Of a stretch of DNA of 64,000 bases, positions 1 through 63,297 are shown piece after piece. This stretch comes from Caldilineaceae bacterium (GTDB taxonomy: Bacteria; Chloroflexota; Anaerolineae; Caldilineales; Caldilineaceae). Position numbers and translations under genes: made by a program. The notes beneath the pieces are model-generated. The model saw only the letters and a program-made list of their open reading frames with translations. It was not told the origin of the DNA and made no database searches. The DNA lies in assembly GCA_019637695.1 (NCBI GenBank), contig JAHBVG010000026.1, positions 1 to 64,000 on the forward strand, written 5' to 3'. Position 1 is the first letter of the stretch. Every line of letters starts with the position of its first letter.

Positions 1-23
1 GACCGTTTCTTATTTCTAAAAAC

Positions 24-590: not shown

Positions 591-591
591 T

Positions 592-1314: not shown

Positions 1315-1328
1315 GGAACTTCTCTGTG

Positions 1329-2459: not shown

Positions 2460-2470
2460 CGTGTTGAACC

Positions 2471-4824: not shown

Positions 4825-4844
4825 GGTTCTTTTCTTTCGGCCAC

Positions 4845-5699
4845 TCAGATTGGCGGCGTATTGAGCAACTTAAGGTCGCGTTCCAACCATTCACCGTCGC
4901 GGTTCTGAATGCGCTGCCGCTCCCACAGCACAGCGTAGGTCAAAAATTTTCCATAGGCGGAAATGGCCGTGAGCGCAAGGCCATGCTCTCCCAATCGCCA
5001 CCAACCGAAGCGAAAATAGGCGTAGACGCCATGACGAGCAGCGCGTAGAATTGCTTCAAGAATTGTAGCGCGGCGGTTGCCACGAATTTGCGCCAGGTGT
5101 GCGGCCTCGATATAGGTAAAAGCAAGCGGCGCAAACGTCAGGCTCAAATTACTCTGCGAGTAGTGATATAGCGGACCACTTAAACGGGCAGTCGGTTGCG
5201 GTACCTGTACAATCTCATGCAGCGCGCGCGTCCAGTTCCCGAGCCGGCGGTTAAAGAGTCGCACCGTGCCCACAGAACTGTTGAAAGGTACTGCCGCTGC
5301 GCCGTGTGGCAAAAGGGTAGATTCCGGCTCAGGCCACCACCTGCCTGTGAAAAGTTCGACGCGGCCAAGCCAGTAACCGTTATAGTCGCCAAGTGCATCG
5401 GCGTCGGCCAAACTGCGAATGCTTTGCTGAAGGGTTGGGGAGACAACTTCATCGGCGTCGATAAAGAGAACCCAATCGTAAGTCGCCTCTGCCTGCGCAA
5501 AGTTGCGCTGCGCGGCAAAATCCTGGAAAGGATGTTGGATGACGCGTGCGTCGTGCGCACGCGCAATATCAACCGTGCGATCGGTGCTGTAGGAATCAAC
5601 TACCAACACCTCGTCCGCCCAACTGAGTGCACTGAGACAGCCAGGCAGCATTTCCTCTTCGTTTTTCGTGATCACGATTGCTGAAATGGGGATAGTCAT
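4845..5699 (-). CDS. Glycosyltransferase, GT2 family (WaaE/KdtX-like)
   Basis: A 284-residue inverting glycosyltransferase with the GT-A fold. ISAIVITKNEEEML (residues 5-18) opens the nucleotide-binding domain, VDSYSTDRT (35-42) is typical of the WaaE/KdtX subgroup, and DAD at 81-83 is the metal-binding motif. AAQRNFA near 62-68 is another subgroup hallmark. In diderm bacteria relatives add glucose to heptose in the LPS core, which is suggestive beside GDP-heptose genes, but this is family-level inference only. The first ATG overlaps the upstream stop by 4 bases (ATGA). No membrane segment is evident, so the enzyme is probably cytosolic or peripheral. Confidence 0.87.
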   Translation of the reverse strand: MTIPISAIVITKNEEEMLPGCLSALSWADEVLVVDSYSTDRTVDIARAHDARVIQHPFQDFAAQRNFAQAEATYDWVLFIDADEVVSPTLQQSIRSLADADALGDYNGYWLGRVELFTGRWWPEPESTLLPHGAAAVPFNSSVGTVRLFNRRLGNWTRALHEIVQVPQPTARLSGPLYHYSQSNLSLTFAPLAFTYIEAAHLAQIRGNRRATILEAILRAARHGVYAYFRFGWWRLGEHGLALTAISAYGKFLTYAVLWERQRIQNRDGEWLERDLKLLNTPPI

Positions 5700-6919
5700 C
5701 TTGTGTCCCTGGTCTGCATCTCGATGTAGATGCGCCTGATTTCGGCGGCGAAGTTGGCCACGCTGTGGTATTGAACATATGCAATCTGCATCCGCGCCAA
5801 TTTCCTGCGTAGCGCTGCATCCGACAGGCGTACATGAATCTGTAGAAACGGGTCCTCTCCGTTGAAGTCAACGACATACTCTGCCAGGTCAAAACGCCGC
5901 AACTCATGAGCCATCCAGGTGCCATCTGTCACAAAAGGTGGTTTGCCAGCTGCCACAGCCTCCACGAAAGGGCCAGAGGTGCGTTCGGCATACTCATGTG
6001 CAACATAGGGTAAAATGACAAAGTCACAGCCAGACAGCCAACTGCCATAATCCTGTTGCGAGAGTTCATTGGGGACGGCGATGACTTCACAACCACCCGG
6101 CGTTGGCTGCAGGCTGGCGCTCGCCGAGGCAGCCAAGGTGAATGCAACTGCGCTGTCACCCACCCATCTTGTCAATTTGCGGATGGTGTCCACCCCTTTG
6201 TCGGTTCGCGCGATGCCCGGCAGCCATCCGACCTGCCGCCCACGCGCCCTGGCTTCTTGAATCGGCTGCGGGGTCTTAAGCGTGGCAACATCCCAACCAA
6301 CTGCGTGGGGAATCGGTAATGTCCGTACTGGCACCCTCAACATGCGCGAGATCGAAAAGCGCAACAGATCGCTGTCGGTCAGCGTCACGAGTGAATTTGC
6401 GGGCATGATCTTTTGCAGATAGCGCATCACCCAGCGATACAGAGGCGCCGTGCGGCGATAGGCAACATCCAAGCGGTAGACGAGCCAAAGAGAGGCGTTG
6501 CGACGAGAAACACGGCTCATTGCCAGGGAGAGCGGTACAAGGTGCGAGATCGTGAAGAAATCGACAAAATAGACTACATGCCGATGCGTATGCTGTTGCA
6601 CAGGCAGAACCACATTCGTGATGTAGCCCACGATCGAGTCGGCGGTGGCGAAAATAGCTCGCTGCATGGCTAACAAACGCTGTAGCGGCGGAAAAGCAAC
6701 AATGCGCTCGTAGTGCAGCCCAACCAGACAGGGCGTCCAGTGGTCGGGCAGCGTGTGAATCATGGGCAGTTCAGGATTGATCTCCTGCACTGCGGCCCAG
6801 TGGGTCCAGCCCAGGGATTCAACAGCCTCCTTGAGCGATTTGTTGTAGGTGAAAGGGTGTCCCGCTGCCTGGGGACTGACCAACATTCCAAGCGAGACAA
6901 CCAGCGGCGCGTCAGTCAT
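5696..6919 (-). CDS. Glycosyltransferase-like protein (GT-B fold), paralogue of the gene at 2471-3658
   Basis: A 407-residue protein. The C-terminal donor half shows QVGWLPGIARTDKGVDTI as hinge and YAERTSGPFVEAVAAGKPPF as the donor-binding helix. The same arrangement occurs in 2471-3658, so the two are likely duplicates now separated by two other transferases. I use the ATG at 6917-6919, which overlaps the upstream stop by 8 bases; the in-frame alternative at 6955 would extend the overlap to 44 bases without recognisable added sequence. The gene ends with a 4-base overlap to the GT2 gene. Function is inferred as glycosyl transfer; donor and acceptor unknown. Confidence 0.75.
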   Translation of the reverse strand: MTDAPLVVSLGMLVSPQAAGHPFTYNKSLKEAVESLGWTHWAAVQEINPELPMIHTLPDHWTPCLVGLHYERIVAFPPLQRLLAMQRAIFATADSIVGYITNVVLPVQQHTHRHVVYFVDFFTISHLVPLSLAMSRVSRRNASLWLVYRLDVAYRRTAPLYRWVMRYLQKIMPANSLVTLTDSDLLRFSISRMLRVPVRTLPIPHAVGWDVATLKTPQPIQEARARGRQVGWLPGIARTDKGVDTIRKLTRWVGDSAVAFTLAASASASLQPTPGGCEVIAVPNELSQQDYGSWLSGCDFVILPYVAHEYAERTSGPFVEAVAAGKPPFVTDGTWMAHELRRFDLAEYVVDFNGEDPFLQIHVRLSDAALRRKLARMQIAYVQYHSVANFAAEIRRIYIEMQTRDTR

Positions 6920-47490: not shown

Positions 47491-49056
47491 CTAGCGTTGG
47501 GTGAGAGGCAAGTAGAGCATCCAATCACTGGCGTAGATGCTGCCCAGATCGATGGCAGAGACGCTGTTATTTGGGCCGATAATCTCCAACCAATAGGTGT
47601 GCAAGATCCCGCTGGTGGCGCTTGTATCCCGGTAGGTGTAGGTATGCCCGGCAGGCTGGCCTATTCGGGCGGCGGGCAGCGAGATGAGATGGGTGCGGCT
47701 ATTGTCGCTGACCCGGTAGAGATTGAATTTGAGGATCTTGGTCTCGTTGATTGTCTGCCACTGGATCTCAACTTCGCCGGGCTGGCTGCCCAACATGAAT
47801 GTACTCACGGCGACAGCAGTCGGCGCAAAGATGACGACATCGTCCTGCGCCGATTTGGGCGGCAGCGGTCCCTGCGGCGGCGTTCCCCCTGGCCCATCGG
47901 GATCGTAGAAGGCGCCATTCACGGTGGCTGTGTTGACGGTGGCTCCATTGGGCAGAGAAGTCGTGTCTGCTTTGGCAACAAACTCAACCACCACCTCAAA
48001 GGATTCGCCTGGCTCCAGATCCCGATCGAAGCCGGTGGACGCTGCCGCTGTCAGATCGCTCCAGTTGATGCTACCATCGCTGATGTTGTCGTCGGAGTAG
48101 GGCGAACTGCCCACGTAGACCAGGAATGCAGTCTGATAGGTATCGTTCAACGGCAACTCACTGATCGTCACATTGCCAGTGTTGGTGATGCGAATGGTGA
48201 AGCTGATCATCTCCCCCGTGCGCACCGGTTCAAGGGTGTTCAACCGTTTTGTAATCTCGAAATCTGGCTCTAAGGGAATCGGCGTAGTGGTAGCCGTCGC
48301 CGTCGGTGTGGCCGTTGACGTATTTGTTGCCGTTGCTGTGGCGGTCGGCGTGTTCGTCGGTGTGTTCGTTGGGGTCGCCGTCGGCGGCACGGGCGTATTT
48401 GTTGGTGTGCGCGTGGCTGTTGATGTTGGGGTTACTGTCGGCGGCACGGGCGTCTTGGTCGGCGTATTCGTTGGGGTCGCCGTCGGCGGCACGGGTGTTC
48501 TGGTGGGTGTGCGCGTCGCCGTAGGGGTGGACGCTATAGCACAGGTGGGGCTAGGACCGGTTACAGTGCCAGAGACAAAGCCAGGGCCACCTTTCAGCGC
48601 CACTGTAATGTTTTGGGCTGCGTAGTTTCCATCTACGGTGATATAGTAGTAACGGGTTTCGCCGACAGCAAAGCCCCGGTTAAACTTCTGGCCGGTTGTG
48701 CCTGTGGTTGGGTCTGTTTTGGGATTTGCAGGGAAATTCGATGGATCGGGGGAGCCAGCCCCTGAGCTACGGCTATTGGTGTTGCTTCCATTCCAGGTGC
48801 CAGCGTCCAAAATCTTCAAACAGCCGCCCAGCGCAAAGGTGACATGGCTGATCTCTGGGTTCGCACCAGACGTTACCTTGTAGTACCAGGTTGATCGACC
48901 ACTGCTGGGCGTGTTGTATTCCACAGCAATGAAGTCAACCTGGTGGTTCCCAATGTTGACTGCTTGGATACTTGTCGCGCTGGCAATCAACAGGGCAAGC
49001 AACGTAATCAGCATTGCCCAGTTGAAGTTGCGGCGCAGTCTCAATCGCATCTGCAT
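47491..49056 (-). CDS. Secreted surface protein with Pro/Thr linker and DUF11 domain
   Basis: A 521-residue exported protein. A signal peptide covers residues 1 to about 32 ([20 protein letters not shown]). Residues 33-175 form a beta-rich domain of unknown family. About 176-262 is a TPTxTPVPPT linker of near-tandem repeats. A DUF11 domain follows ([20 protein letters not shown]). Then comes an Fn3-like segment ([20 protein letters not shown]) and the tail [12 protein letters not shown]. The last 250 residues are homologous to the ends of the two larger proteins upstream. AAGGAGAG precedes the ATG. Cell-surface attachment is inferred from the shared tail; no LPxTG motif or C-terminal membrane helix is seen. 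Confidence 0.83.
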
Positions 49057-49480: not shown

Positions 49481-49522
49481 AAAGCGGGCGAGGAGCAACT
49501 CTGGTTGCTCCTCGCCCGCTTT
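49481..49522 (-). terminator. Strong terminator after the giant surface-protein gene
   Basis: AAAGCGGGCGAGGAGCAAC pairs perfectly with GTTGCTCCTCGCCCGCTTT (19 pairs, 4-base loop), and the minus strand ends in six T. It lies 32 bases after the stop codon. Confidence 0.93.
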
Positions 49523-49553
49523 ATCAACGGGGGCAAGTTGTTAGGGGAGAGGG

Positions 49554-52500
49554 TTAGTTTGACACCCTCGGCAAGAAGAGGCGGACGCCGCCTGTGTAGA
49601 CGCTACCCAACTCCATGCTCAAGACGGATCCATCCAACTGTACGAGGTCAAGGCGATAGCTGTACCAGACGTTGACGATGACGCCGCTGTCTGTATAAGT
49701 GTAGCCCTGCCCACCTGATTGACCAGCCCGCTCGGCAGAGATGGTGGCTACCAGGGTACTCGCTTCTGCTTCAATTCGATACAGATCGAAGTATGCAATG
49801 TTGCTCTCGTCTACAGTCTGCCAGTTGACATCGACAACAGCCTCGCCCGCGGTCACCCCGTAGTCGGCGAGCAGCACTGACGTGGGGGCGATGACACCCA
49901 CGGTGGCCGTGGCTGAGCGATCCGGCAGCGGACCTTGTGGCGGCAGACCGCCAGGGCCATCAGCGTCGTAGAAGGCCCCTGTCACCAGAGCGGTATTGGT
50001 TGTCACACTGCCAGGCTGGCCGGTGGTATCGGCGATGGCGATGAAGTTGACCACTACGGAGAAGGCCGCGCCGGGAGCCAGATCCACGCCGAAGCCGTTG
50101 GGCGCTGGCGCTGTCAGATCGCTCCAGTCGATGCTGCCATCGCTGACATTGTCGTCCGAGAGCGGGGTCGCCCCTACATAGGCCAGGAAGAAGGTGGTGT
50201 ACGTATCGCGCAGCGGCAGAGTGGTCAGGGTGACATTGCCGGTATTGGTAATGCGAATGGTAAAGCTGATCGTCTCCCCAGTCCGTACGGGCGACGGTGT
50301 GTTGAGCGTCTTGGTCACCACGAAGCTGGTATCCAGAATCCTGATGGTGACGGTTGCCGTGTCGCAGATCGTCTGGTTGGGCGCAGGCAGGCAGACCTGA
50401 TAGGTGAAGCTGTCTGTGCCCGTGAAGCCAGGATTGGGTGTATAGGTGAACGTACCGTCAGTTGGATTGAAGCTATTGACTGTACCGTTCGACGGTACAG
50501 TTGTCGTTATGAAGGTGCTGCCCGGCGGGTAGGTGTCATTGACGCTCACTGTAGCCGTGATCGGCGTGTTGACCGATGTGGTGTAACTGTCATCACGGGC
50601 CTCGATGTTCAACGCTACCTCGAAGTTCTGGCCCGTCCTGTTCTGGCCCAACGTCAGGTTGACCGGGCTGATCACATTGGGGTTGCCGCCGTCGCGGTCG
50701 CCCAGGCTGCTGTAGTTGGGCAGCACGGTCTGCGCGATCCGGTAGAGACCCGGCTCCAGGTTGCTGAAGCTGTAGAAGCCAGTGATGCTGGTGGTCGCCG
50801 TCAGTGTGGCATCGTCGGCTGTGCCCAGGATGCCATCATCGCCGGCGTAGGTCAGGGTCACCGTGATACCCTGCAGCGGCGTCTCGTTGCCGTCATCGCA
50901 AGGCCCGACCCCTAGCAGGCCGCTGGGGCTGACACAGACTGTACCGCTGATGCTGCCTGGTCGCTGGTTGTAGCCGAAGTCCAGATCAGTGATGTTGCCG
51001 TTGACGGTGAACGGCGTGGAAGGCGTCTCGGTGGCCGCGTAGTCGTTGCGGGGCAGATCGTTCTCGTCCGCGTCGAGGACAGAACAGACCGCGCCCTGCG
51101 GAATACCAGCGACGCTCCAATTCCCGTTGGCGTCCGTCTGCACGCTGACGGTCCCCAATTGGGTGCAGATGACGGTCACATCCACGCCTGGGAAGCCAGG
51201 TTCGCCTGTATTCCAGTCACCATTGTTGTTCTGGTCGTTGTAGACCCGCCCGCTGATGGTGTAGACCGTGGTCGCTGCACGATACCCGAAGTCCACAGTA
51301 AGCACAGTGTTGCCACCGCTGAGCGTGGCCTTGCCCGTGTGGTCTAATGCGCCGAAGTTGTCGAAGGTCTGCACAAAGCCAGCGGGCAGGGTGGCGGTAT
51401 TGACCACGGTGATGTAGTTGCCGTCGGGCAACCCCGTGAAGAGGTAGTTGCCAGTGCCACTCGTCACCTGGGCGGCTAAGAAGGTATCGCCCCCATCCAG
51501 GACGCCATTATTGTTGTTGTCCCGGTAGAGGCTGACGGTAACGCCGCCCAGCCCCGATTCCCCAGTCTCTTGCACACCGTTGTTATTGGCGTCGTTCCAG
51601 ACGCGGTCGCCGATAGCGCCAGTATTGTCTACACCGAAGTCGAAGCGCTGCCAGCCATCCTCGCCGGCGATGGCAGTGAAGGAGAAGCTGGTGGGCGTGG
51701 TCTGCGTGCCCAGCGCCGGGTAGAGCGAAGTCACCTGGGCCGGGTTGTAGCTGATGGTGTAATCGCCCGGCGGGATCAGGAAGACTACGTTGCCGGTGGA
51801 CGAACTTACACCGGTCCGTGTCACCGGGTTGCCCAGCGTATCCGTGCCGGTGACGGTGACGGTGACGCCAGCCAGTCGTTGCTCAGCGCCCTCGAAGAGG
51901 CCGTTGCTGTCCTCATCCCAGAAGACCAGGGATTCGATGCGCGCGCCCACGAAGTAGCCGAAGTCAGCGTTCATGAAGGACATGTTGCCCGGCGCCAGCG
52001 TGACGGGAATGTTGTCGGCGGTGGTGGGAACCACATCGCGCACGCCATTGGTGACCAGACTATCCTCGTAGACATCGACGATGTATTTGCCCGGCGGCAG
52101 GTTCGGGATCAGATAGTAGCCGTTGGCGTTGGTGAAGACACGCAGGATCTCAAAGTCCCCGGCCACCAGATCCAGCACACCGTCGCCGTCCTTGTCGAAG
52201 TAGAGCTGGACACGGGCATTGAAGATCCCGCGGTTGGCCGCCTCGTCCTGCACACCATTGAGGTTGTCATCCCACCAGACGTAATCGCCGATGGAGCCAG
52301 ACCAGTTGTAGCCAAAGTCCACCGTATCCACCACCGTGGAATCGGTCGCCAACGTGACCAGGGCCACATGGGGCGTGCCGACGCCGTCGAGATCATAGGT
52401 GGGCGTCATCACGCTGCCCAGGCTGAATGTGCCGCTGGCATAAGGGCTGGTGATCTGGCTGCTGGTGTTCACCGTCACCCGATAGTTGTCGGCAATCAGC

Positions 52501-55500
52501 CCGGTGAAGGTGTACTTGCCGCTAGCATCGGTGGTTGTGGATGACAGAGTCGTCCACACGCCGTTGATGTCGATCTGCAACGTTACCGTGATGTTACGAA
52601 TGCCTAATTCGCCGGCATCCTGGATGCCGTTGTTGTTGGCGTCCAGCCAGATGGTGTCGCCGATGCGGCCTGTGCCCGCTGGCTTGAGACCGAAGTCGGC
52701 ATCGTCGAATTGCTGGCCGCTCGCCAGGTTGACGCTCAGCACCTGTGATGTGGTGGGGATATAGCCCGCCGGATAGGTGGATGGGTCTGTGCGCACAATG
52801 TAGGTGCCTGCGCCCAGATTAAAGATGCGGTACGCGCCCAGCGCATCGGTGATGGCATTGGGTTCGCCAACATCCCAAACCCCGTTGTTGTTGCTGTCGA
52901 TGTAGACGCGCACGCCAGCCAGCCCGGCTTCACCCACATTCTGGATGCCATTGCCGTCGGTATCGTTCCAGACGCGGTCGCCGATGCTGCCTGTGGTACC
53001 GGTCTGCGTCGTGTTGCTGGGGAAGGTATTGGGCGCAGAACTGACGATCACCAGTAGCCCCGTGTTGCGGATCACCGGTGGCGGTGAACCGGTCACCGTG
53101 GCGCGGAAGGAAAGGATCGGGCTGACCAGCACGCTGCGCGAGATCGCCGCCGGGAAGGCAGTCGGCCCTGCGCCGGTGCCACTGGCGCTGAAGCGCAGGC
53201 TGGAAGGTGTGGTGCTGCCCGCCACGGTACAGACCCAGCGGTAGCGCACATCGTCGCCGATATTGGTAGCGTTGTTGTCCGCTGTCACCAACACCGGCCC
53301 AGTGAGTACACTGCACGAGGCTCCGCCCGTGGGCGTGATGGTGAGCGAGCTGGCAACGACGTTGGTAACAGCCGCGGTAGATTGCAGCCGCAATTCTATT
53401 GTCACCTGATCGCCCGTCGCAGCCAGGCTGGGGAGGGCGGTCAGCGTGGTGAAGCGCCCCTGTGGGTTGACGCCGGCATCATAGACCAGCGATCCACCCT
53501 GGCCCACATTGCTGGGGAAGTTAGCTGCTGCCAGCACCGTCCACGTATTGGTGGCGATGGTGTAGCGCCAGAAGGCTTTGGTCTTGCCTTGCAAGGCATA
53601 GATGAAGGCGCCATCGGTGGTCAGCGCGCCGCCGTCGCCCACGTTGCCAGGGGCCAGGGCCAAAGCCGACCAGGTGTTGTTGGCAATGTCATAGCGCCAG
53701 AAATCGCGCTTGCCATCCCCGCGGAAGGCGTAGATGAAGTTGCCCACACGGGTCAGCGCGCCGCCCCATTTGACATTGGCTGGGGTCGAGGCCAGAGTTG
53801 TCCAGGTGTCCGAACCGACGTTGTAGCGCCAGAACCCGGTCTTGCCATCACCTTGCAGCACATAAAGATTGGTGCCATCGGTGGTAATCGCCCCACCCTG
53901 TTTGACGTTGGCCGGCGTAACGGCCAGGACCGTCCAGGTATTGGTCGCAATGTTGTAGCGGCGGAAGCGGTTGCTGTTGCCCAACACGGCATAGACATAC
54001 TCGGTGCCACGTACGTTGAGATACTGGATGCCGCCGCCCTCGTTGAAGTTGTCTGAGGCGTTGGCTAACGCTGTCCACGTATCGGTGGTAATGTTGTAGC
54101 GGAAGAAGCGGTTGGCGTTGCCTTCACTGGCATAGAGGATGCCACTGCCGGCGTTGGTCAGTGCGCCGCCTTTTTCGGTGCCGTTGGTGGTCTGCGCCCT
54201 GGCCGTCCACGCGCCGCTGGTAGTGCCATACTTTGAGAAGTCTCTTTTGTTGGCGCCAGCCAGTGCATAGACGCCTGGCGTGTAGCCGCTGACAATCGTC
54301 TCGCCCGGCACGCCAGGAATGTTTGTCCCCAGGTTCCAGGTGACCACATTGGGGCCGCCATGCGGCGCAGCCAGCACGCTGCGCGAGGTGGCCTCAGGCC
54401 AGCTATAGGTCCCCAGTACATTTTCTGCGCCTGCCGAGAAGACATATTCGCCAGTGCTGCTCAGGGTACAGGTCCATGTAAAGTTCTGACCGGTATTGGC
54501 AGATAGATTGGCGCTGGCTGGGGTGGGACCGGTACAGACGCCCACGCCGCCATTCACCACCAACTCGGTGGGCGTAACCGTTGTCACCGCCACGCTGCTG
54601 GTAATGCGCTGGGTCACGGTGACAACGCCGCCCAGGTTGACAAAGGTGGGCGTCACGGTGAAGGAGCTTCTCAGCGCCGTTGTGCCCAGAGGTCCGCCTT
54701 CCAGATCCTCCCCGTTTTCCGCGGCCAGAGGCATATACGCTCCAAAGACGCCACCCGCGTTGGCGCTGCCCGCCACATAGGTGGTTCCCGTTGGCAGCGG
54801 ATCGATGACGCGCACATTCTCCAACAGATCGGTAGTGGGGTAGACCGGCTTGAGGGTGAAGGTCAGCACCGTGCCTGCTGTGGCCGAGGCTGTATTCACC
54901 GTCTTGGTCAACCGCGGGGTGAAGGGGAAATCGGCGTCCAGATAGTTTTGACCCGCCGTCAGCATCACTTCAAACTGCTCAACGCTGGCAAAGAGATTGA
55001 GCGGCAGATCCGGATCGGCTGTATCGACAACCACGGTATAGTTGCCCGGCCCCAGATTGTTGAAGAGATAGCTACCATCCGGTCCCGAAACCGTGGTGCG
55101 GAAAGGCTCGCCGTCGCGCAGCAGCGTCACTGTAATATTGGCAAGCGGCGCGTCGCCGCTGTCATAGATACCGTTGCCGTTGTTGTCGATGAAGACCTGG
55201 TCTCCGATAGAACTGGGCGCAGTGCGCCAGAAACCGAAATCGTTGTCCAGATCGCTGCCCGTCAAGTTGGGCGAGGCGATGATCTCCGGCGTACTCAGTT
55301 GGAAGGGCGTGTTGGCCCCATACTTGATGTTGAAAAAGGCCTGGATATCGGAATCGGTACGGTCCACACGCACCAGATAGTTGAAGCCTGTGGCCAGATT
55401 GTTGAAGAAGTAATCGCCGCTGCCGTTGCTCTGGGTGGTGGCCACCAATGCATCGCCGGCGTCGATCACGCCATTGTTGTTGCCGTCCTCATAGAGCCAG

Positions 55501-57968
55501 ACGGTGACATTGGCGATGCCAACATCCCCCGCGTTGAAGACCCCATCGTTGGCGATGTCCTCAAAGACCTTGTCGCCGATGATGCCGGCGCCCGTGGGCC
55601 GGTAGCCGAAATCGGCGGTTAAATATTGCTGATCGGTGGCCAGGTTGACCGTGTGGCGGTTGTCACACGTCATACAGGTCACACCCGGCTGGTCTGGGTC
55701 ACCACTCTGCACCGTCCCCGGCAGGGGCGCGCCGCTGTTCACTTCCACCACATAGGTCCCCGCCACCAGGCCAGGGAAGTAGTAGTTGCCATTGGCGTCG
55801 GTGGTGGTGGTGGCGAGGAGGGTTGTGCCATTGGCGGCAAAGAGCCGAACAGTGACGCCGGCAATGCCTTCCTCGCCGGCATCCTGCACGCCGTCGCCGT
55901 CCCAGTCGCGCCAGATCGTATCGCCGATCTTGCCGCCGGCCACCTGCACACAGGCCAGCGCGCCCGTAGTCTGACGGATGCTGTTCTGGATCACATCATA
56001 GGTGTTACAGTAGGAGCCAGGGCTGAGCGCCGGGCTTATCTGCGCCCTGAAGACCAGTTGTAGCTGGCTGCCGGCGTTGATGCCAGAGGGAACCGTAAAG
56101 ACGGGCACAGCCGGCGTCCCCCCTACGGTTGTCGAGCCTGTGACCAGCGCGCCGTTGACAGTGACGCTGCTCAGGCTGCTATAGGTAAAGCCTGTGGGCA
56201 GATACTCGTTAATACGCGTGGGGTTGCCGCTGGGGCCGCTGCCCACATTGCTGATGGTCAGGGTATAGGTCACCGTTCCCCCTGGCGCCACCCCACTGGG
56301 CGAAACGCTCTTGGTGGGAACCAGCAAGGGGACGAGACCAGAGATGGTCTTGTCTGAACTGGAGACGCTGATCTCATTCGAGGTGACATTGATTCTATTC
56401 TGCAGCATCCCGGACTGGTTCACGCGCACCGTCACCGTTGCGGAGAATGCCTGTCCCGGCTGCAACGTACCCACATTATTCCAGACCAGGGGATTGGGTC
56501 CACTGTTCTGAGCAGGAACAGCGCTGAGGAAGGTGACGCCCGATGGCAGGGTATCGCTCACCACCACGTTGTTCATGGTGAAGTTGCTCAGGTTGTATGC
56601 CTTCACCTGATATTGGATGATTTCGCCAGTGCGCACCAGGTCGCGGTTGGCGGGTTTGCCCACCATCAGACAGACGTTGCCTACCAGACTGTTGGGATCG
56701 TAGTAGCGCCAGATGTGGTCCTTGCCGTTGCTGTCGCCGCCAGCGTCGCCGCCGAAGGTATCCAGCAGAAACTCAGGACATCCCGAAGGGTTGACAATAC
56801 CAGCGGGGTTGTCAACCTTGATCTTGAGCCAGGCGAACTCTGGTTTCTGAAAAGTCAACTGGCCGTAGGCCCAACGAATGGCGTTGGGTGTGCCATTGCT
56901 CTGGCCGGTGGTCAGGGGCAGGGGATTGCCGGGGCTGAGCGCATAGCCTACATTGCTGGCGTCTGCACCGCGGGTGTAGGGCTGCACGGGCGGGTTAGCG
57001 CCGGGCGGATCGTCGGAAATTTGGCTGCCTGGGTAGCGGATACGCTGCCAGGGGCCCACCGTCTGCGTAGCCGTGTTAATACAGGCGGCATTTGGGGCCA
57101 TCGATCCCCCGGTACATGCCAGATAGGCGGGGTAGTTGAATTCCCAAGCGTAGCCGCTCTGCGGCCCAGCCACGGCATTGGCCAGCCCCCAGGGGGCGGT
57201 GCCACGGCCATTGCTATCGATAATGGGTGACGACGGGTAGGCAGGATTGGTGGTGCCGGCAATCCCAAAGCCGGCCATCTGCCAGGCATCCCAGGCGTTC
57301 ATGGGCGTACCCAAGAGTGTACGCAAGCCAACGGTATCCCCGCTGTTGTTGCGGATGGTGCCGCCCGTGTAGGTGCCGAAGGCCGTGGATGGATGGGTGG
57401 AATAGAAAATGCCCGTGTCGGCGTAGACACCGGGCAGCGTTCCCAGGTTGGCATTGGCGGCTGTTACAATCGGGCTGGTAACACCGAGGATGTTAGGGCC
57501 ACGGCTGATGCCGGTCAGGTTCACCGTCGGGCCACCCCCTGCGCCCACCGACGGCATGGGGGCCTGTCCCTGTGCGGCGACCCTGGTATAGCCACCGCTG
57601 CCGTCCGGGGCCACAAAGGCTGCATCCACCACTTGAATGCCGTTGGGAATATAAAAGGTGGTGTAGCCGCCCACACCCGTGGTCGTGCCGTTGTCCGGCA
57701 GGGCCTTGATGATCAGCCCTAGTTCATCCGTGGATTGCAGCAGCGGCGTTCCCGGTGTCCAACCGCCGGCAATGCGTGCATCGAGCATGGCCTGGGTTTC
57801 GGGATCAAAGAAAATATAGATGGCGCTGGCGTCCAGGTTGTGCGCGGACGCGGTGGGTATCTCTCCTCCGGGGATAAGCGTTGGAAAGAGGTTAAAAACC
57901 ATCGCAATCAGCAGGGCAAGATGGACCCCAATCGATCGCCTCGATTTTCGATGTAGGTTAAGGTGCAT
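49554..57968 (-). CDS. Giant secreted protein: DUF11, SdrD_B repeats, internal kelch-like propeller
   Basis: About 2,804 residues. The signal peptide ends near residue 42 (PTASAHN). A unique N-terminal region runs to about 435, then two DUF11-like domains (436-676). Three SdrD_B/Cna-B-type domains start near 678, 794 and 919 (IGDTIWRDWDGDGVQDAGEE pattern). A further DUF11-like domain begins near 1023. About 1223-1496 hold six kelch-like repeats of the type FWRYNVGSDTWTTLASTPAN. Seven more SdrD_B-like domains start near 1661-2336, several with calcium-loop-like D/N-rich stretches. A cadherin-like (Tandem-95) domain (about 2449-2543), DUF11 (2544-2690) and an Fn3-like end with tail GGVRLFLPRVSN follow. 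The ATG at 57966-57968 has GAGAGGA upstream. Likely a long fibrous surface protein. Confidence 0.88.
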   Translation of the reverse strand: MHLNLHRKSRRSIGVHLALLIAMVFNLFPTLIPGGEIPTASAHNLDASAIYIFFDPETQAMLDARIAGGWTPGTPLLQSTDELGLIIKALPDNGTTTGVGGYTTFYIPNGIQVVDAAFVAPDGSGGYTRVAAQGQAPMPSVGAGGGPTVNLTGISRGPNILGVTSPIVTAANANLGTLPGVYADTGIFYSTHPSTAFGTYTGGTIRNNSGDTVGLRTLLGTPMNAWDAWQMAGFGIAGTTNPAYPSSPIIDSNGRGTAPWGLANAVAGPQSGYAWEFNYPAYLACTGGSMAPNAACINTATQTVGPWQRIRYPGSQISDDPPGANPPVQPYTRGADASNVGYALSPGNPLPLTTGQSNGTPNAIRWAYGQLTFQKPEFAWLKIKVDNPAGIVNPSGCPEFLLDTFGGDAGGDSNGKDHIWRYYDPNSLVGNVCLMVGKPANRDLVRTGEIIQYQVKAYNLSNFTMNNVVVSDTLPSGVTFLSAVPAQNSGPNPLVWNNVGTLQPGQAFSATVTVRVNQSGMLQNRINVTSNEISVSSSDKTISGLVPLLVPTKSVSPSGVAPGGTVTYTLTISNVGSGPSGNPTRINEYLPTGFTYSSLSSVTVNGALVTGSTTVGGTPAVPVFTVPSGINAGSQLQLVFRAQISPALSPGSYCNTYDVIQNSIRQTTGALACVQVAGGKIGDTIWRDWDGDGVQDAGEEGIAGVTVRLFAANGTTLLATTTTDANGNYYFPGLVAGTYVVEVNSGAPLPGTVQSGDPDQPGVTCMTCDNRHTVNLATDQQYLTADFGYRPTGAGIIGDKVFEDIANDGVFNAGDVGIANVTVWLYEDGNNNGVIDAGDALVATTQSNGSGDYFFNNLATGFNYLVRVDRTDSDIQAFFNIKYGANTPFQLSTPEIIASPNLTGSDLDNDFGFWRTAPSSIGDQVFIDNNGNGIYDSGDAPLANITVTLLRDGEPFRTTVSGPDGSYLFNNLGPGNYTVVVDTADPDLPLNLFASVEQFEVMLTAGQNYLDADFPFTPRLTKTVNTASATAGTVLTFTLKPVYPTTDLLENVRVIDPLPTGTTYVAGSANAGGVFGAYMPLAAENGEDLEGGPLGTTALRSSFTVTPTFVNLGGVVTVTQRITSSVAVTTVTPTELVVNGGVGVCTGPTPASANLSANTGQNFTWTCTLSSTGEYVFSAGAENVLGTYSWPEATSRSVLAAPHGGPNVVTWNLGTNIPGVPGETIVSGYTPGVYALAGANKRDFSKYGTTSGAWTARAQTTNGTEKGGALTNAGSGILYASEGNANRFFRYNITTDTWTALANASDNFNEGGGIQYLNVRGTEYVYAVLGNSNRFRRYNIATNTWTVLAVTPANVKQGGAITTDGTNLYVLQGDGKTGFWRYNVGSDTWTTLASTPANVKWGGALTRVGNFIYAFRGDGKRDFWRYDIANNTWSALALAPGNVGDGGALTTDGAFIYALQGKTKAFWRYTIATNTWTVLAAANFPSNVGQGGSLVYDAGVNPQGRFTTLTALPSLAATGDQVTIELRLQSTAAVTNVVASSLTITPTGGASCSVLTGPVLVTADNNATNIGDDVRYRWVCTVAGSTTPSSLRFSASGTGAGPTAFPAAISRSVLVSPILSFRATVTGSPPPVIRNTGLLVIVSSAPNTFPSNTTQTGTTGSIGDRVWNDTDGNGIQNVGEAGLAGVRVYIDSNNNGVWDVGEPNAITDALGAYRIFNLGAGTYIVRTDPSTYPAGYIPTTSQVLSVNLASGQQFDDADFGLKPAGTGRIGDTIWLDANNNGIQDAGELGIRNITVTLQIDINGVWTTLSSTTTDASGKYTFTGLIADNYRVTVNTSSQITSPYASGTFSLGSVMTPTYDLDGVGTPHVALVTLATDSTVVDTVDFGYNWSGSIGDYVWWDDNLNGVQDEAANRGIFNARVQLYFDKDGDGVLDLVAGDFEILRVFTNANGYYLIPNLPPGKYIVDVYEDSLVTNGVRDVVPTTADNIPVTLAPGNMSFMNADFGYFVGARIESLVFWDEDSNGLFEGAEQRLAGVTVTVTGTDTLGNPVTRTGVSSSTGNVVFLIPPGDYTISYNPAQVTSLYPALGTQTTPTSFSFTAIAGEDGWQRFDFGVDNTGAIGDRVWNDANNNGVQETGESGLGGVTVSLYRDNNNNGVLDGGDTFLAAQVTSGTGNYLFTGLPDGNYITVVNTATLPAGFVQTFDNFGALDHTGKATLSGGNTVLTVDFGYRAATTVYTISGRVYNDQNNNGDWNTGEPGFPGVDVTVICTQLGTVSVQTDANGNWSVAGIPQGAVCSVLDADENDLPRNDYAATETPSTPFTVNGNITDLDFGYNQRPGSISGTVCVSPSGLLGVGPCDDGNETPLQGITVTLTYAGDDGILGTADDATLTATTSITGFYSFSNLEPGLYRIAQTVLPNYSSLGDRDGGNPNVISPVNLTLGQNRTGQNFEVALNIEARDDSYTTSVNTPITATVSVNDTYPPGSTFITTTVPSNGTVNSFNPTDGTFTYTPNPGFTGTDSFTYQVCLPAPNQTICDTATVTIRILDTSFVVTKTLNTPSPVRTGETISFTIRITNTGNVTLTTLPLRDTYTTFFLAYVGATPLSDDNVSDGSIDWSDLTAPAPNGFGVDLAPGAAFSVVVNFIAIADTTGQPGSVTTNTALVTGAFYDADGPGGLPPQGPLPDRSATATVGVIAPTSVLLADYGVTAGEAVVDVNWQTVDESNIAYFDLYRIEAEASTLVATISAERAGQSGGQGYTYTDSGVIVNVWYSYRLDLVQLDGSVLSMELGSVYTGGVRLFLPRVSN

Positions 57969-58140
57969 AAAATCCTCTCTTATCATCTCTTCATTTGCAG
58001 ACAACTCTATTCCACATTTAAATCTTGCTTTCGATTATCATTATATATATATACTCTTACATCTATTGTTACAATAGGATGACAATTATTGAGATCCAAC
58101 CGAGATGTTCTGGGGGTGAGCCAGAATCTTGAATGAGTAA

Positions 58141-58229: not shown

Positions 58230-61200
58230 TTACCGGGTTACGCCGGGCAGGAAGATACGGATCCCACCGGTGTAGACGCGCCCGATACCCATGCTGACAA
58301 TCGAACCATCTGGACCGAAGACTTTGAGTTGATACTCATACCAGGTGTCGTTCACGACATTGGTGTCTTCGTAGGTGTAGGTAGCGCCTGTCGGCTGGCC
58401 GGTATGGACAGCCTGGATAGTCTCCAGCAACAGGCTTTGTTCTCCTTCAATGCGATAAAGCTCAAAGAAGGCGATGTTGCTTTCTGTGGTCGTCTCCCAG
58501 TGGACCCGAACAATCGCCGGGCTGTTGCCCGCTACATCCGACTGCCCAGCCACATGGACAACCCCATAGTTCACGACGTTGGCCGCCGTGGGCCCCAGGA
58601 TCTCCACGGTGTCGTTGGCCGATTTCGGCGACAGCGGACCCTGCGGCGGCACACCACCTGGTCCGTCGGGATCGTAAGTTCCGCCGGAGACCGTGGCCGT
58701 GTTGACGGTAGGCGTCCCCAATGTGTCCGCTACGGCGATGAAGTTGACTCTCACACTGAACGATTGACCTGGCCCCAGATCCTGGCCGAAGCCGGTCGGC
58801 GCCGGGGCGGTGAGATCGCTCCAGTTGATCACGCCATCGCTGATGTTATCGTTTGAAAACGGTGTCGCCCCCACGTAGGAAAGATAGGCCGTCTGATAGG
58901 TGTCGGTCATGGGCAGTGTTGTAATGGTAACATTGCCCGTGTTGGTGATGCGGATGGTGAAGCTGATCAGCTCCCCGGTGCGCACGGGTTCGGGCGAATT
59001 CAGCGTCTTGCTGATCTGATAGTCCGGCAGCAAGGGAACAAAGCCGCCATCCACATCCCGGTTATCGACGCCAGCGGTCAGCGTGGCCGGCGCGTGGCCT
59101 GTGCTGCTGATGAAATCGCTGTCGGTAGTGTCGCTGCCGACATTGGCCGGGCTATAGGCGTAGCCGTAGAGCGGGCCGCCTGGCGCGAAGTTGCTGGGGT
59201 CAATCTCAACCTGGTAGGTGCCGGGAGGCAGGTTGCTGAACAGATAGCTGCCATTGGCATCGGTGCTGGTCGAGTCGAGAAAATCGTTGTTGCTGTCGTA
59301 GAGATTCAACTCAACACCGGGTATACCAGGCTCACCACCATTCTGAACCCCGTTGCCATTCGTATCGCGCCAGATAAAATCGCCAATACTGCGGGTTACA
59401 TAGGCCCCAGCGTCCCAGCGCAGATCCGTCTGCCCAGAGACAAGGGTGATCAAGGTGGTGAAGCCGTTGAGCGAGTTGGCGTCGCTATCTTTTGTGTCGT
59501 CGCCACCCTGATCGCGCTGTGTAAAGACATAGCCGCTGGGCAGTGAGAAGTTGACGAAGTAGCTTCCTGGCGTCAATCCGCTGAAGAGATAGAGACCTGT
59601 AGAGGTTGTCACCTTTGTATCGAGTACCGTACTCAGGCTGGCATTCCACAGGCGCACAGTCGCCCCGCTAATGCCGCCCTCTCCCCCATCCTGGATACCG
59701 TTGCGGTTCAGGTCATTCCATACAAAGTCGCCCAGGCTGGCCGTGCGATATATGCCCGCATCCCAGGTCAGATCGATCTCGCCGGAGACGAGCGTGGTCT
59801 GTATGGTGCGGCCCGTTGTGGGATTCGCATCACTGTCGACTGCCGTGTTGCTTCCCTGATTCTGCAAGGTGAAGCTATAACCCGATGGTAGCGTGAAGCC
59901 GACGGAGAAGTTGCCCCCCACCTGTGCCGTAGGAATCGTGAAACTGTAAAGGCCAGAAGCACTCGTAGTAGTGGTGCTGATCGGGTTGTTGCTGCTGTTA
60001 TAGAGGGTGACCGTGACATTGGAGATGCCCAGCTCGCCCCCATCCTGGATGCCGTTGCCGTTCATGTCTTCCCACACACGGTCGCCGATCACAGCCGGGA
60101 AGACCGTCTGTACGTAGAAACCGCCATCAACGCTCAGATTGTCCACATTGGCGGTGACGATTTGGGCCGGCGCCCGCCCGGTAGCGCTGTTGAAATCGCT
60201 ATCGATCTCGTCGTTGCTGCCCACGTGGGCTGGGCTATAGAGATAGCCATTCAGCGCGCCGCCAGTGGTAAAGTTACTCGGCGCGATCTGCACTTCGTAG
60301 TTGCCCACGGCCAGACTCGTGAAGTAATAGCGCCCGCTACTATCGGTGGTTGTCGTACCAACCAGTGCGTTGCTGTTGTCGTACAGATTCAGCACGACAT
60401 TGGCAATGCCCACTTCGCCAGCGTCCTGAATACCGTCCTGATCGGTGTCCCCCCAGATGAAGTCACCGATACGCGCGCCGCCTGCGCCGCCTCCGGCCAC
60501 ATAGCCAAAATCTGCCTCGAGATAACTCTCCCCTTCATCGAGACTAATGACAGAGGTCGGGTTGTTGAAGGTGGTGATGGATAGCCCCGTCGGCGTGATG
60601 GTGGATTCTTCCACGTGGACGAAGTAATCGTTCGGCGGCAGGTCCTGGAAGAGATAGCGGCCACCGCCAGACGTGGTCTGCGTTCCCACCAGTGTATCCT
60701 GAGCAGCGTTGAAGATGCCGTCGCCGTTGTCCCTGTAGAGGCGCACCTGCACCCCGTTGATGCCCGGCTCACCCGCATCCTGCACACCGTCGCCGTTGAG
60801 ATCGTGCCACACAAAGTCGCCGATCTCACCAGGGCAGACGCCCGGTTCCGCATAGATGGTATTCGAGCCGAGCTTGCTGGGCGAGGCATGAATATAGGGC
60901 ACTTCTAGAGAGCCAAAGCCGGCTGCGCCAAAGGCTGCGCTGGCGATCTTCACCTCGTAGATTACATCGTAGATCCAGTTAGGATAGGTGGCGTTGGGCG
61001 CATAGAACTGGTTGGTGGCCGGGGAGTTCACCAGCAGGTTTGTCCCTCCTGCCGAACAGTTGCCGCCGGAGCAGTAACCTGTTGAGTTCAAGCTGTACTC
61101 AATAGATGTGCCCCATTGCAAGATGTTGGCCGCAGAGCCGATGTTGATCTTACCCTCGCCGCCGCTTACACCCAACGCAGCATAGTCAGAGGGCGTGCCG

Positions 61201-62936
61201 GTCTTGGTCGAGATATAGTCTAGCTTGAAGTCCAGAACCCTCGTGCCATTGGCATCATAGCCGTAGAACTGAGCATGGTCCGAGCCGACCAACTGGCTGT
61301 ACGTATGGCCGCCGGGCCAACCCACGGCATTGGTGCCATAGGTGTTATCGACAAAATCTTTGTCAATCGCCAACACCATGTAGATGTCGCCTGCCTGCTG
61401 GTAGAAGGTCGCCAGCTTGCCAAAGAGGACGCCATTGGCGTTATAGCAGACTTCTGTCGCATCGGGCGAAAGCGTATAGATCGAGTCGTACTTGCCGTCA
61501 ATCACCGGCGGCGCGTTGACAAAGACCTCGGTGCGGTCCGTAGCCGTGCCAAAGAAGGCCGCATTGGTGGTCAACGTGGCCTTGATCACGGTCTGATCCA
61601 CGGTGCCCGCGGTCGCGCCCACCGGCACGGTGACCTGCGCCACGAGATGATAGATACCGCCGCCGCTAATACAGACCGGGTTGGAGACTGGCGGCTCGTT
61701 GGGGTTGCTGGTCTCGTGGACGCCATTGGCGTTGAGATCGTGCCAGAGTTGGACCGTCCACCCCTGGCTGGAAGTGCCCGTCACGTTGACACAGATCTGG
61801 TTGGCGCTGTTGTTGGTGATCGAGTGTCCATAGAACAGGGTGGTGCCCGGGGTGGCAAACTGGCTGTTGCTGGGAGCGACCCGAATCAGCGAGCCAATCC
61901 GCGTCCGATCGGTTGCGGAAGTGGTGATCGCCCCCGCTGTAGCCGTGACCGTCGTCATGTCCAGGACACCGGGCTGCGTGCCAGGCGGTATGTCAATCTG
62001 CACCAGTAGTGGATAATCGGTATTGTCCACGACGTTCAGGCTTGCGATCGGCCCTTCGCCGCCGTCCACCTGTCCATTGTTGTTGATGTCGTGGTAAACG
62101 CGCGTGGTCCACCCCTGGCTGGAGACAGCGCTGAGGTTGACGCTGCCGTTGAAGCTGGCAACAGAGAGAGTGTGGGTGTAGGTCTTGGTCTGCCCGGCGA
62201 TGCTTTCGGCGCTGTTGTCCGGCGACAGCACCAACGCGCTGGAGTAACAGATCTCCAACTTGGGTCGCTGAGCAGCAGTCCCATCATCGCTGCTGCGGAA
62301 GCGAACTTCCGATTTGGGATTGGTGACAGACGACTCTAATAACACGCCAAAGTTGGTGGCCGGATTGCTGATCCAGGGACCGACCAACGGCGTGATATCC
62401 CAGTTTGCCCAGAAATTCTTCATGTCCTTGATAAAGACCGCAGAGCTGACCGTGGCCGCGTTGTAATCGCCGCCAAGGTTGGTCCACAAGAGATTCTGCG
62501 CCCGGTTGCGCGCCTTCCAGGTCACCTCGCTTTCCGTCCACGAATTGGTGATCTGGTGTGTAGCAATGGTCATGTTGCCATCGCGCACCTCTTTCACATA
62601 GAGCGAAAGCACCGCGCTGCTCACGGTGGCATTGGCAGGAATCGCCGACAGATCGAACTCTAGCAGGGTACGATTGAGCTTGCCTGTCTCACTCTTGACC
62701 CGCAGTTCGGTATCACCGCCCCGCTTTTCATCCTGGTTGTCCTGTCTAATATAGGAATCTTTGCCAGGTGTAGGCCCAGGTTGTAGAACAAGACAGGTAA
62801 GCGAAGAAGTGGCGGCCGATGCCTGGTTGGCTGCCGGATGAAATGCAGAGCTTGCAAATCCAACCATACCGATCAAGAAAACTGTCATTGCTAATTGCAG
62901 ATATTTCGCAATCCATCCCATCTTGATCCGCTTCAT
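58230..62936 (-). CDS. Large secreted protein: DNRLRE domain, SdrD_B repeats, DUF11
   Basis: About 1,568 residues. The signal peptide ends near ANQASA (about residue 43). Residues about 50-235 are a DNRLRE/CBM96-like beta domain (DSYIRQDNQDEKRGGDTELR, then LLEFDLSAIPANATVSSAVL). Two related domains with WTTRVYHDINNNGQVDGGE and WTVQLWHDLNANGVHETSN follow, and then a unique region around 430-690. Five SdrD_B domains start near 704, 820, 952, 1069 and 1184 (IGDFVWHDLNGDGVQDAGEP pattern). The end is DUF11 (about 1302-1445), an Fn3-like part (FELYRIEGEQS) and the tail GGIRIFLPGVTR. The ATG at 62934-62936 has AGGAG upstream. Probably a cell-surface or sheath protein; binding partner unknown. Confidence 0.88.
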   Translation of the reverse strand: MKRIKMGWIAKYLQLAMTVFLIGMVGFASSAFHPAANQASAATSSLTCLVLQPGPTPGKDSYIRQDNQDEKRGGDTELRVKSETGKLNRTLLEFDLSAIPANATVSSAVLSLYVKEVRDGNMTIATHQITNSWTESEVTWKARNRAQNLLWTNLGGDYNAATVSSAVFIKDMKNFWANWDITPLVGPWISNPATNFGVLLESSVTNPKSEVRFRSSDDGTAAQRPKLEICYSSALVLSPDNSAESIAGQTKTYTHTLSVASFNGSVNLSAVSSQGWTTRVYHDINNNGQVDGGEGPIASLNVVDNTDYPLLVQIDIPPGTQPGVLDMTTVTATAGAITTSATDRTRIGSLIRVAPSNSQFATPGTTLFYGHSITNNSANQICVNVTGTSSQGWTVQLWHDLNANGVHETSNPNEPPVSNPVCISGGGIYHLVAQVTVPVGATAGTVDQTVIKATLTTNAAFFGTATDRTEVFVNAPPVIDGKYDSIYTLSPDATEVCYNANGVLFGKLATFYQQAGDIYMVLAIDKDFVDNTYGTNAVGWPGGHTYSQLVGSDHAQFYGYDANGTRVLDFKLDYISTKTGTPSDYAALGVSGGEGKINIGSAANILQWGTSIEYSLNSTGYCSGGNCSAGGTNLLVNSPATNQFYAPNATYPNWIYDVIYEVKIASAAFGAAGFGSLEVPYIHASPSKLGSNTIYAEPGVCPGEIGDFVWHDLNGDGVQDAGEPGINGVQVRLYRDNGDGIFNAAQDTLVGTQTTSGGGRYLFQDLPPNDYFVHVEESTITPTGLSITTFNNPTSVISLDEGESYLEADFGYVAGGGAGGARIGDFIWGDTDQDGIQDAGEVGIANVVLNLYDNSNALVGTTTTDSSGRYYFTSLAVGNYEVQIAPSNFTTGGALNGYLYSPAHVGSNDEIDSDFNSATGRAPAQIVTANVDNLSVDGGFYVQTVFPAVIGDRVWEDMNGNGIQDGGELGISNVTVTLYNSSNNPISTTTTSASGLYSFTIPTAQVGGNFSVGFTLPSGYSFTLQNQGSNTAVDSDANPTTGRTIQTTLVSGEIDLTWDAGIYRTASLGDFVWNDLNRNGIQDGGEGGISGATVRLWNASLSTVLDTKVTTSTGLYLFSGLTPGSYFVNFSLPSGYVFTQRDQGGDDTKDSDANSLNGFTTLITLVSGQTDLRWDAGAYVTRSIGDFIWRDTNGNGVQNGGEPGIPGVELNLYDSNNDFLDSTSTDANGSYLFSNLPPGTYQVEIDPSNFAPGGPLYGYAYSPANVGSDTTDSDFISSTGHAPATLTAGVDNRDVDGGFVPLLPDYQISKTLNSPEPVRTGELISFTIRITNTGNVTITTLPMTDTYQTAYLSYVGATPFSNDNISDGVINWSDLTAPAPTGFGQDLGPGQSFSVRVNFIAVADTLGTPTVNTATVSGGTYDPDGPGGVPPQGPLSPKSANDTVEILGPTAANVVNYGVVHVAGQSDVAGNSPAIVRVHWETTTESNIAFFELYRIEGEQSLLLETIQAVHTGQPTGATYTYEDTNVVNDTWYEYQLKVFGPDGSIVSMGIGRVYTGGIRIFLPGVTR

Positions 62937-63297
62937 AGTGTGGCTCCTGGGTAAATGGTTAATTACATGCGCCGACACTGTTGCAAGTGTTGTCTCACTC
63001 TGTATGCGCACGACATACCAAAGCAAGCCCAACTTCTGACATTGAGGTGCGACATGTGGTCTATAGGAATTATAGTCTATTGTGAAATTCTGTTTTGTTA
63101 CACTTTGCTGACAGTATTGCTTAGAGTGGCGTAACTGCCAGGCATTGCTCTAGCCAGGCCCTCTGCTCCGGGCGGGTCACGGCTCCATCCCTGGCGAACT
63201 AAAATTGCCTCAGCCCTCAATTTGGTGAGGAAGTCTGGAGACTGCTATAATCAGCGACACAGTACATAGCAATCTTTTGGCACAAAAAAGGAACCTT
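62937..63297. other. Divergent intergenic region before secG
   Basis: No gene is seen in these 361 bases. On the minus strand TATAAT (63069-63074) could be a -10 box for the surface-protein gene, without a good -35. At 63149-63180 GCTCTAGCCAGG and GGGTCACGG recur from the inverted repeat near 38398-38455. The secG promoter is described separately. Confidence 0.55.
63222..63251 (+). promoter_or_regulatory. Probable secG promoter
   Basis: TTGGTG (63222-63227), 18 bases, TATAAT (63246-63251), with the secG ATG 46 bases further on. The -10 box is perfect and the -35 weak. Confidence 0.6.

Follow-up and report, generated by a model that had tools for sequence, protein, structure and literature searches.

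The window analysed here comprises 64,000 nucleotides of contig JAHBVG010000026.1 (positions 1 to 64,000 of the forward strand; assembly GCA_019637695.1) from a Caldilineaceae bacterium of the class Anaerolineae (Chloroflexota). On its minus strand lies a gene for a 2804-residue protein, whose attachment to the cell surface we assume. The reading frame opens with an ATG at 57968, ends with a stop at 49554, and contains zero internal stops; the frame listing gives the same open reading frame with an upstream TTG start at 58004. Compared with Pfam in full length, the protein showed ten stretches matching SdrD_B (411 bits, E 3e-125), five matching DUF11, and a Big_9 domain, bearing out an earlier sequence-only reading of an SdrD_B rod broken by DUF11-like parts. 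The signal-like N-terminus is followed by an N-terminal domain, two DUF11-type domains, SdrD_B repeats 1-3, and a 640-residue region with the kelch blades (residues 1019-1658), which we call the slot; after the slot come SdrD_B repeats 4-10, the Big_9 domain, and a C-terminal module, part of which is DUF11-like (Table 1). Neither LPXTG nor another known anchor motif was read at the C-terminus of the translation, and no tandem DNA repeats were found in 49500-58100 at the default score.

Table 1. Features of the gene and of its protein product, with positions in the window.
Feature	Residues	Window	Strand	Basis
Gene of the 2804-residue surface protein (P0001)		49554-57968	-	Open frame and Pfam domains
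Signal-peptide-like N-terminus (basic, hydrophobic, ASA-HN)	1-42	57843-57968	-	Translation read by eye
N-terminal domain, kept in relatives (40-68% identity)	35-440	56649-57866	-	Homology
DUF11 no. 1, uninterrupted	434-532	56373-56669	-	Best Pfam stretch
DUF11-like no. 2, uninterrupted	about 548-676	55941-56327	-	Sequence reading and DUF11 stretches
SdrD_B repeats 1-3	680-1016	54921-55931	-	Pfam
Host DUF11, first part	1019-1078	54735-54914	-	Profile scores, joined parts
Lys1022 codon	1022	54905-54903	-	Within first part of host DUF11
Asp1056 codon	1056	54803-54801	-	Within first part of host DUF11
Insert A: Ig-like domain	1100-1205	54354-54671	-	Homology among relatives; predicted strands
Host DUF11, middle strand VVTWNLGTNIPGVPG	1206-1222	54303-54353	-	Sequence
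Insert B: six-bladed kelch propeller	1229-1498	53475-54284	-	Pfam, AlphaFold2, Foldseek, VIA-align
Insert B: Ig-like adaptor following the propeller	1507-1617	53118-53450	-	Homology, including relatives with other heads
Host DUF11, last part	1618-1657	52998-53117	-	Sequence, profile scores
Asn1635 codon	1635	53066-53064	-	Within last part of host DUF11
SdrD_B repeats 4-10		50655-52997	-	Pfam
Big_9 Ig domain	2457-2542	50343-50600	-	Pfam
C-terminal module (DUF11-like part and tail RLFLPRVSN)		49557-50330	-	Common to both neighbouring genes

Kelch motifs in the slot exceeded the Pfam cut-offs for Kelch_6 (40.7 bits; cut-off 25.3), Kelch_1 (36.7; 20.1), and Kelch_3 (33.2; 22). Six blade units of 42-47 residues each could be read at residues 1225-1498 (window about 54296-53475), in agreement with the six kelch-like blades proposed earlier at 53480-54300. 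We modelled the slot by AlphaFold2 from an 8-row alignment of the window protein, a provirus-borne relative, and distant kelch proteins (L113 as one row). The mean pLDDT was 68.8 for the whole slot, and the ring reached 84-97 in ten-residue blocks save two blocks at 75 and 67. The predicted ring has 24 strands ordered 3 + 5x4 + 1; blade 1 is without a GGxL strand, and the last strand, GGSLVYD, which follows blade 6, can supply it and thereby complete blade 1. The Ig-like domain of insert A was modelled with pLDDT mostly 59-86 and a low end, and the Ig-like adaptor of insert B with just 47-68. The PDB matches in the 50 Foldseek rows listed were SAKe6 designs and kelch domains of Keap1 and KLHL proteins (TM by target 0.72-0.87), and the region matched by Foldseek and VIA-align corresponds to about residues 207-485 of the model. 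VIA-align superposed the KLHL17 kelch domain with a Z-score of 36.0 and r.m.s.d. of 1.5 for 259 residues, and the SAKe6 designs with a Z-score of 35.9 and r.m.s.d. of 1.3 for 254 residues. The closed propeller for which the sequence-only reading had suggested structure prediction is predicted with confidence (top Z about 36), and the model supports a six-bladed kelch ring midway along the SdrD_B/DUF11 stalk.

The likeness of neighbouring blades had also been taken as a sign of recent duplication. This did not hold: the blades are not recent copies because each of the six pairs best with the blade at the same position in G380, a relative from another family. The best partner was found at the same position for five of six blades in the provirus-borne protein (L112), five of six in G245, and three of six in G313. 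The most alike neighbours, blades 5 and 6, share 69% identity in DNA and use different codons at 12 of 28 shared residues. A search for a second copy of the propeller in the bacterium's own genome returned weak kelch matches only, the best with 31 bits.

The propeller does stand between SdrD_B repeats, as first noted, but it appears to be inserted in a split DUF11 domain rather than to form a link in line. By sequence, one DUF11 stalk domain seems to be interrupted by the propeller and two Ig-like domains. Two inserts, of about 130 (A) and 390 residues (B), separate this host domain into three pieces: the first part leads into the Ig-like insert A, then into the middle strand VVTWNLGTNIPGVPG (the W strand), then into the propeller with its Ig adaptor, and finally into the last part, which carries RNTGLL. 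We built a local DUF11 profile from 101 uninterrupted copies with the slots masked, and scored the first part, the joined parts, and 100 control joins. In 10 of the 12 proteins scored, none of the 100 control joins reached the true join; the window protein reached 40.4 when joined, 33.7 with the first part alone, and 39.0 with the best control. The gain by joining was weak in L112, where 4 of 100 controls matched it, and absent in G245, where 47 of 100 controls were equally good. With the Pfam DUF11 profile, the joined parts scored 43.1 against 29.7 for the slot in situ in G380, 39.3 against 26.3 in G145, and 39.2 against 32.4 in G013. The joined window host is also above the Pfam cut-off (31.6; cut-off 24.6), but its score is carried by the first part, which reached 32.3 alone (wrong-order control 29.3).

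The propeller and its Ig neighbours might instead be consecutive links of the fibre, with force running through the propeller and the flanks being separate, degenerate domains. Such an arrangement would agree with the first part of the window host scoring as well alone as joined in Pfam, and with the lack of a confident AlphaFold2 model of the host domain, whose outer parts had a pLDDT of 25-61 in ten-residue blocks. However, the last 40 residues hold the DUF11 Asn strand, joining outperformed every control in most of the proteins scored, as given above, and in the slots without insert A (G145, G082, G013, G032a, and G032b) the first part continues into the W strand as in uninterrupted DUF11. 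We consider consecutive links unlikely, and infer a nested fold of the separated DUF11 parts from their sequences. An alignment of uninterrupted DUF11 to the split hosts was rejected as an input for folding because it placed the Asn strands within the propeller.

DUF11 (CLIPPER) is described in PMC12617251 as a stalk domain able to form a Lys-Asn isopeptide bond, and the same text reports that CnaA/CnaB folds tolerate inserted adhesion domains. Using the triad positions of PDB 9IFR as tabulated in that article, we located Lys1022, Asp1056, and Asn1635 in the window host, aligned with the uninterrupted copies. The Lys-Asp spacing is 34 both in the window host and in uninterrupted DUF11 no. 1, whereas the Lys-Asn spacing is 613 in the former and 86 in the latter. 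In 12 of the 14 hosts, Lys, Asp, and Asn/Asp all aligned despite the intervening inserts, with the Asn being Asp in G245. The two exceptions are G176, the last part of which is absent from the data, and L112, in which the Lys is four columns off in the multi-host alignment, yet opposite Lys1022 in the pairwise alignment. Because the Lys-Asp-Asn triad is found in 81 of the 101 uninterrupted DUF11 copies, it marks a normal DUF11 and not a special staple. The aligned residues suggest that an isopeptide bond could form across the inserts of the split host.

The architecture had been called unusual, and the family is indeed uncommon. Its N-terminal domain, a better family marker than the slot, was found in 21 of 396 genomes drawn from the class (own genome included) and in 2 of 400 drawn from the phylum, namely the own genome and one of the same class. 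Within the taxonomic family, 6 of 46 genomes contained it, own included, and in three other families of the class 5 of 20, 2 of 24, and 2 of 10. The slot as a query matched 21 of 100 genomes (own included), mostly by partial matches. Searches with the N-terminal domain named 23 proteins, the window protein included, in 12 of which the slot was wholly or partly readable; G032a, identified by the slot search, became the 13th. Of the other 11 (G006, G023, G172, G139, G272, G004, G056, G276, G325, G242, and G750), some stop ahead of the slot or barely within it, some are shorter relatives, and G750 presents a short locus only. All 13 readable slots interrupt the corresponding DUF11, between SdrD_B repeats 3 and 4 where both flanks could be placed, and none of the 13 slots read was a dock without an insert.

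What insert B holds (in G176, what both inserts hold) differs among these 13 members: seven carry a kelch head (G000, which is the window protein, G380, G245, G313, G076, G214, and G222), four a CBM96 head (G145, G082, G032a, and G176), one an SBBP propeller, and one an uncatalogued domain. The G245 ring is below the Pfam kelch cut-off, yet 50% identical to the window ring. CBM96 matched in four stretches across both inserts in G176; PMC9971899 describes this domain as an alginate-binding module. In G013, 13 SBBP stretches take the place of kelch on a stalk collinear with that of the window protein (45.6% identity over residues 15-1073 and 39.0% over 1509-2802). The uncatalogued head of G032b includes an in-frame stop (on L060, separating frame 554-4177 from frame 4181-6862). 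The genome G032 holds two such proteins, G032b and the CBM96-bearing G032a, and the latter has an apparent third insert of ~300 residues near the end of the host DUF11 (L051, 3987-4949, minus strand) with a phytase-like match of sub-threshold score only. The kelch proteins have an Ig-like domain as insert A, to which G076 and G214 add about 125-130 residues. The sequence of the Ig-like adaptor also found matches in relatives whose heads are of other kinds, the one in G176 lying at insert A.

On a stalk tree of 17 rows (four without a label, all from the 11 proteins whose slot was not readable), inferred from the N-terminal and pre-slot parts, the kelch label changes three times and the CBM96 label three times; the well-supported branches force at least two kelch changes and at least three CBM96 changes. 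All head labels together require four changes, compared with a mean of 5.5 for shuffled labels, and 12 of 200 shuffles were as low. The labels are thus partly clustered on the stalk tree, so the heads have been partly inherited and partly exchanged.

This variety also bears on the idea that the kelch ring is a fibre-borne enzyme of the mutarotase or galactose-oxidase type. The ring weakly matches N-acetylneuraminate epimerase/mutarotase models (14.2-18 bits, residues 1315-1467) as well as the PA5033 family (24.3 bits over residues 1268-1484), and the relative G222 matches Pfam NANM with 22.6 bits (cut-off 45). These scores are far under the family cut-offs (PRK14131, 17.1 of 416; mutarotase models, 18 of 243.2 and 14.2 of 256.35; PA5033, 24.3 of 100), for which we rejected a NanM-type enzyme for the window ring. 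Moreover, the listed structural matches were Keap1/KLHL domains and designed propellers, and relatives carry CBM96 or SBBP at the same place. A catalytic ring of any such type seems to us highly improbable.

Three co-oriented neighbours have in common a C-terminal module of ~258 residues (at 47503-48264, 49557-50330, and 58236-59021, minus strand; 52-62% identity), whose end reads YLPLTQR, LFLPRVSN, or IFLPGVTR. Two further contigs hold six weaker matches to it, of which one spans residues 5-235 with 35% identity; it is possibly a sorting or assembly module. The neighbouring 1600-residue protein (58230-63032, minus strand) has an N-terminal CBM96 domain, a head type also seen in the dock of relatives, and five SdrD_B repeats. 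Kelch rings are general folds for protein-protein interaction, and the head could accordingly be a structural module joining neighbouring fibres or cell-surface layers, with no outside ligand; three adjacent genes with a common C-terminal module could form one such layer. The head type, however, varies while the stalk stays related; a change of targets would account for this better than a conserved assembly contact, and we regard a purely structural head as very unlikely.

The N-terminal domain is conserved over ~400 residues with a mean column identity of 60% in a 13-row alignment. The domain of the window member had no match in Pfam or NCBIfam and no PDB match better than E 0.16, and its profile retrieved nothing convincing among solved structures, Pfam, and NCBIfam. 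AlphaFold2 with the single sequence gave a mean pLDDT of 32. The actual tip of the fibre may be formed by this domain.

The same DUF11-kelch cassette was found once more, probably outside the class. The IMG/VR provirus contig L112 encodes a 1871-residue protein with the same split DUF11 and Ig, kelch, and Ig domains, together with an unrelated N-terminus, another C-terminal part, and DUF11-type repeats; SdrD_B had no match in the scanned parts of the protein. Its identity to the window protein is 49% in the first DUF11 part, 32% in the Ig domain of insert A, 65% in the W strand, 64% in the kelch ring, 43% in the Ig domain of insert B, and 30% in the last DUF11 part. The contig has a GC content of 41% and the gene a GC3 of 30%, compared with 61% and 76% for the window gene, so any transfer would be old. 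One of the two serine recombinases of L112 shares 52-58% identity with those of the ten top entries listed out of 512 phage records; the hosts of these phages, where stated, are Acutalibacteraceae, Oscillospiraceae/Oscillospirales, and Ruminococcus. Acutalibacteraceae belong to the Clostridia (Bacillota), and from the recombinase matches the host of L112 is probably a clostridium. The tape-measure protein, about 30% identical to those of phages of many Gram-positive hosts, does not narrow the host. In the kelch tree, L112 falls inside the rings of the class, grouped with G000, G380, and G245 (99/98), and a tree keeping the seven class rings together without L112 was rejected (AU p 0.0003), although this group was chosen after the identities had been seen. 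The provirus bordering the kelch cassette gene has a CBM96 domain protein (L124, 6862-7506, plus strand) downstream of its tail genes.

Among viral contigs, the kelch ring as a query retrieved L112 plus six distant loci, and the G380 slot retrieved the L112 contig again plus 13 distant ones; the slot, the G076 slot, the N-terminal domain, and the L112 slot as queries gave no new close carrier. The slot query missed L112 among the viral contigs, hence the scans are not exhaustive. Plasmid and phage collections gave distant kelch matches only (1 and 8 records), none spanning 80% of the slot, and one scan of genome contigs gave seven distant kelch loci. By a crude motif count, proteins of ~2400-2580 residues on the Patescibacteria-type MAG contigs L014, L015, and L016 contain 8, 6, and 4 kelch stretches. 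The comparison excludes L125, L113-L123, and L131-L143, except for L113 as a row of the folding alignment. We suggest, though with more doubt than belief, that DUF11 might serve as a general dock for heads on the surface fibres of bacteria, and that DUF11, Ig adaptor, and head might make up a cassette passed between distant bacteria. Heads would be swapped at a point flanked by the W strand and the Ig adaptor, with the stalk unchanged, and the Lys-Asn staple would keep any head out of the load path without weakening the fibre.

For the window protein itself, we consider it probable that the fibre bears an exchangeable, side-mounted binding head on an isopeptide-stapled DUF11 dock. The protein would be a secreted, fibre-like protein of the surface, and one of its DUF11 stalk domains would act as the dock. 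Two DUF11 loops would carry the insertions: an Ig-like domain at A, preceded by another module in some relatives, and the head with its Ig-like adaptor at B. Lys and Asn on the strands before and after the inserts could form an intramolecular isopeptide bond stapling the split domain shut. Force applied along the fibre would then be borne by the staple, with the head hanging sideways from the two loops, outside the load path. The kelch ring is plausible as the binding head, which probably binds a glycan or a protein in the surroundings; relatives place CBM96 or SBBP at the same point. Exchanging the head would provide a new target for the same fibre. Surface anchoring, side mounting, load bypass, and binding are all presumed in this scheme. 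If it is right, bacteria could change what a giant fibre holds without rebuilding the fibre, by a fixed and probably cross-linked dock that takes propellers or carbohydrate-binding domains, which would also explain the domain order first seen as unusual. Such a natural insertion site might be useful for displaying proteins on fibres, and the dock would make it possible to test directly if isopeptide staples are there to hold heads mounted at the side.

Among the matches listed from the open-licence PMC literature, we found no title or start of an abstract that described this architecture, and we found no paper in that literature combining kelch with DUF11, or SdrD_B with a propeller. Among known families, the window protein fits kelch and DUF11 (by profile and triad) and neither SdrD/SdrC nor NanM-type enzymes. 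Staphylococcal SdrD and SdrC (MSCRAMM) have the SdrD_B stalk repeats in common with it, but the window protein is without a readable LPXTG, and its scores are far below those of the full-length families (237.4 of 2500 and 213.5 of 1700). Keap1, the KLHL proteins, and the SAKe6 designs share the fold, with blade number and last-strand closure alike by the predicted strands, whereas the window ring is about 20% identical, bacterial, and inserted in a stalk domain. The Vibrio biofilm adhesins Bap1 and RbmC contain a beta-propeller in another architecture. They are likewise modular surface adhesins, and the text of PMC10102183 has 'beta-propeller' 25 times and DUF11 never. According to PMC10952558, CshA/B_NR2-type fibrillar adhesins swap adhesive domains on stalks including SdrD_B and DUF11, but the adhesive domains described there are upstream of the stalk repeats rather than inside a stalk domain as here. 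Of the features of fibrillar adhesins, the window protein has a signal-like N-terminus and a repeat stalk, with no anchor recognised. In GBS104, the insert is a vWA domain at the pilus tip. GBS104-like adhesins (PDB 3TXA; ranges 137-211 and 587-717 in PMC12617251) likewise carry an inserted domain within an isopeptide domain of the stalk, whereas in the present family the domain so interrupted is a mid-fibre DUF11, and the heads, kelch, SBBP, or CBM96, vary on a related stalk. DUF11/CLIPPER (PF01345) of PMC12617251 is also close, with the same family, the same Lys/Asp/Asn positions, and a long fibre, but the window host is split by two head-bearing inserts. By analogy, the window protein might work like adhesins with domains inserted in isopeptide domains, from which its mid-fibre position and exchangeable heads would set it apart.
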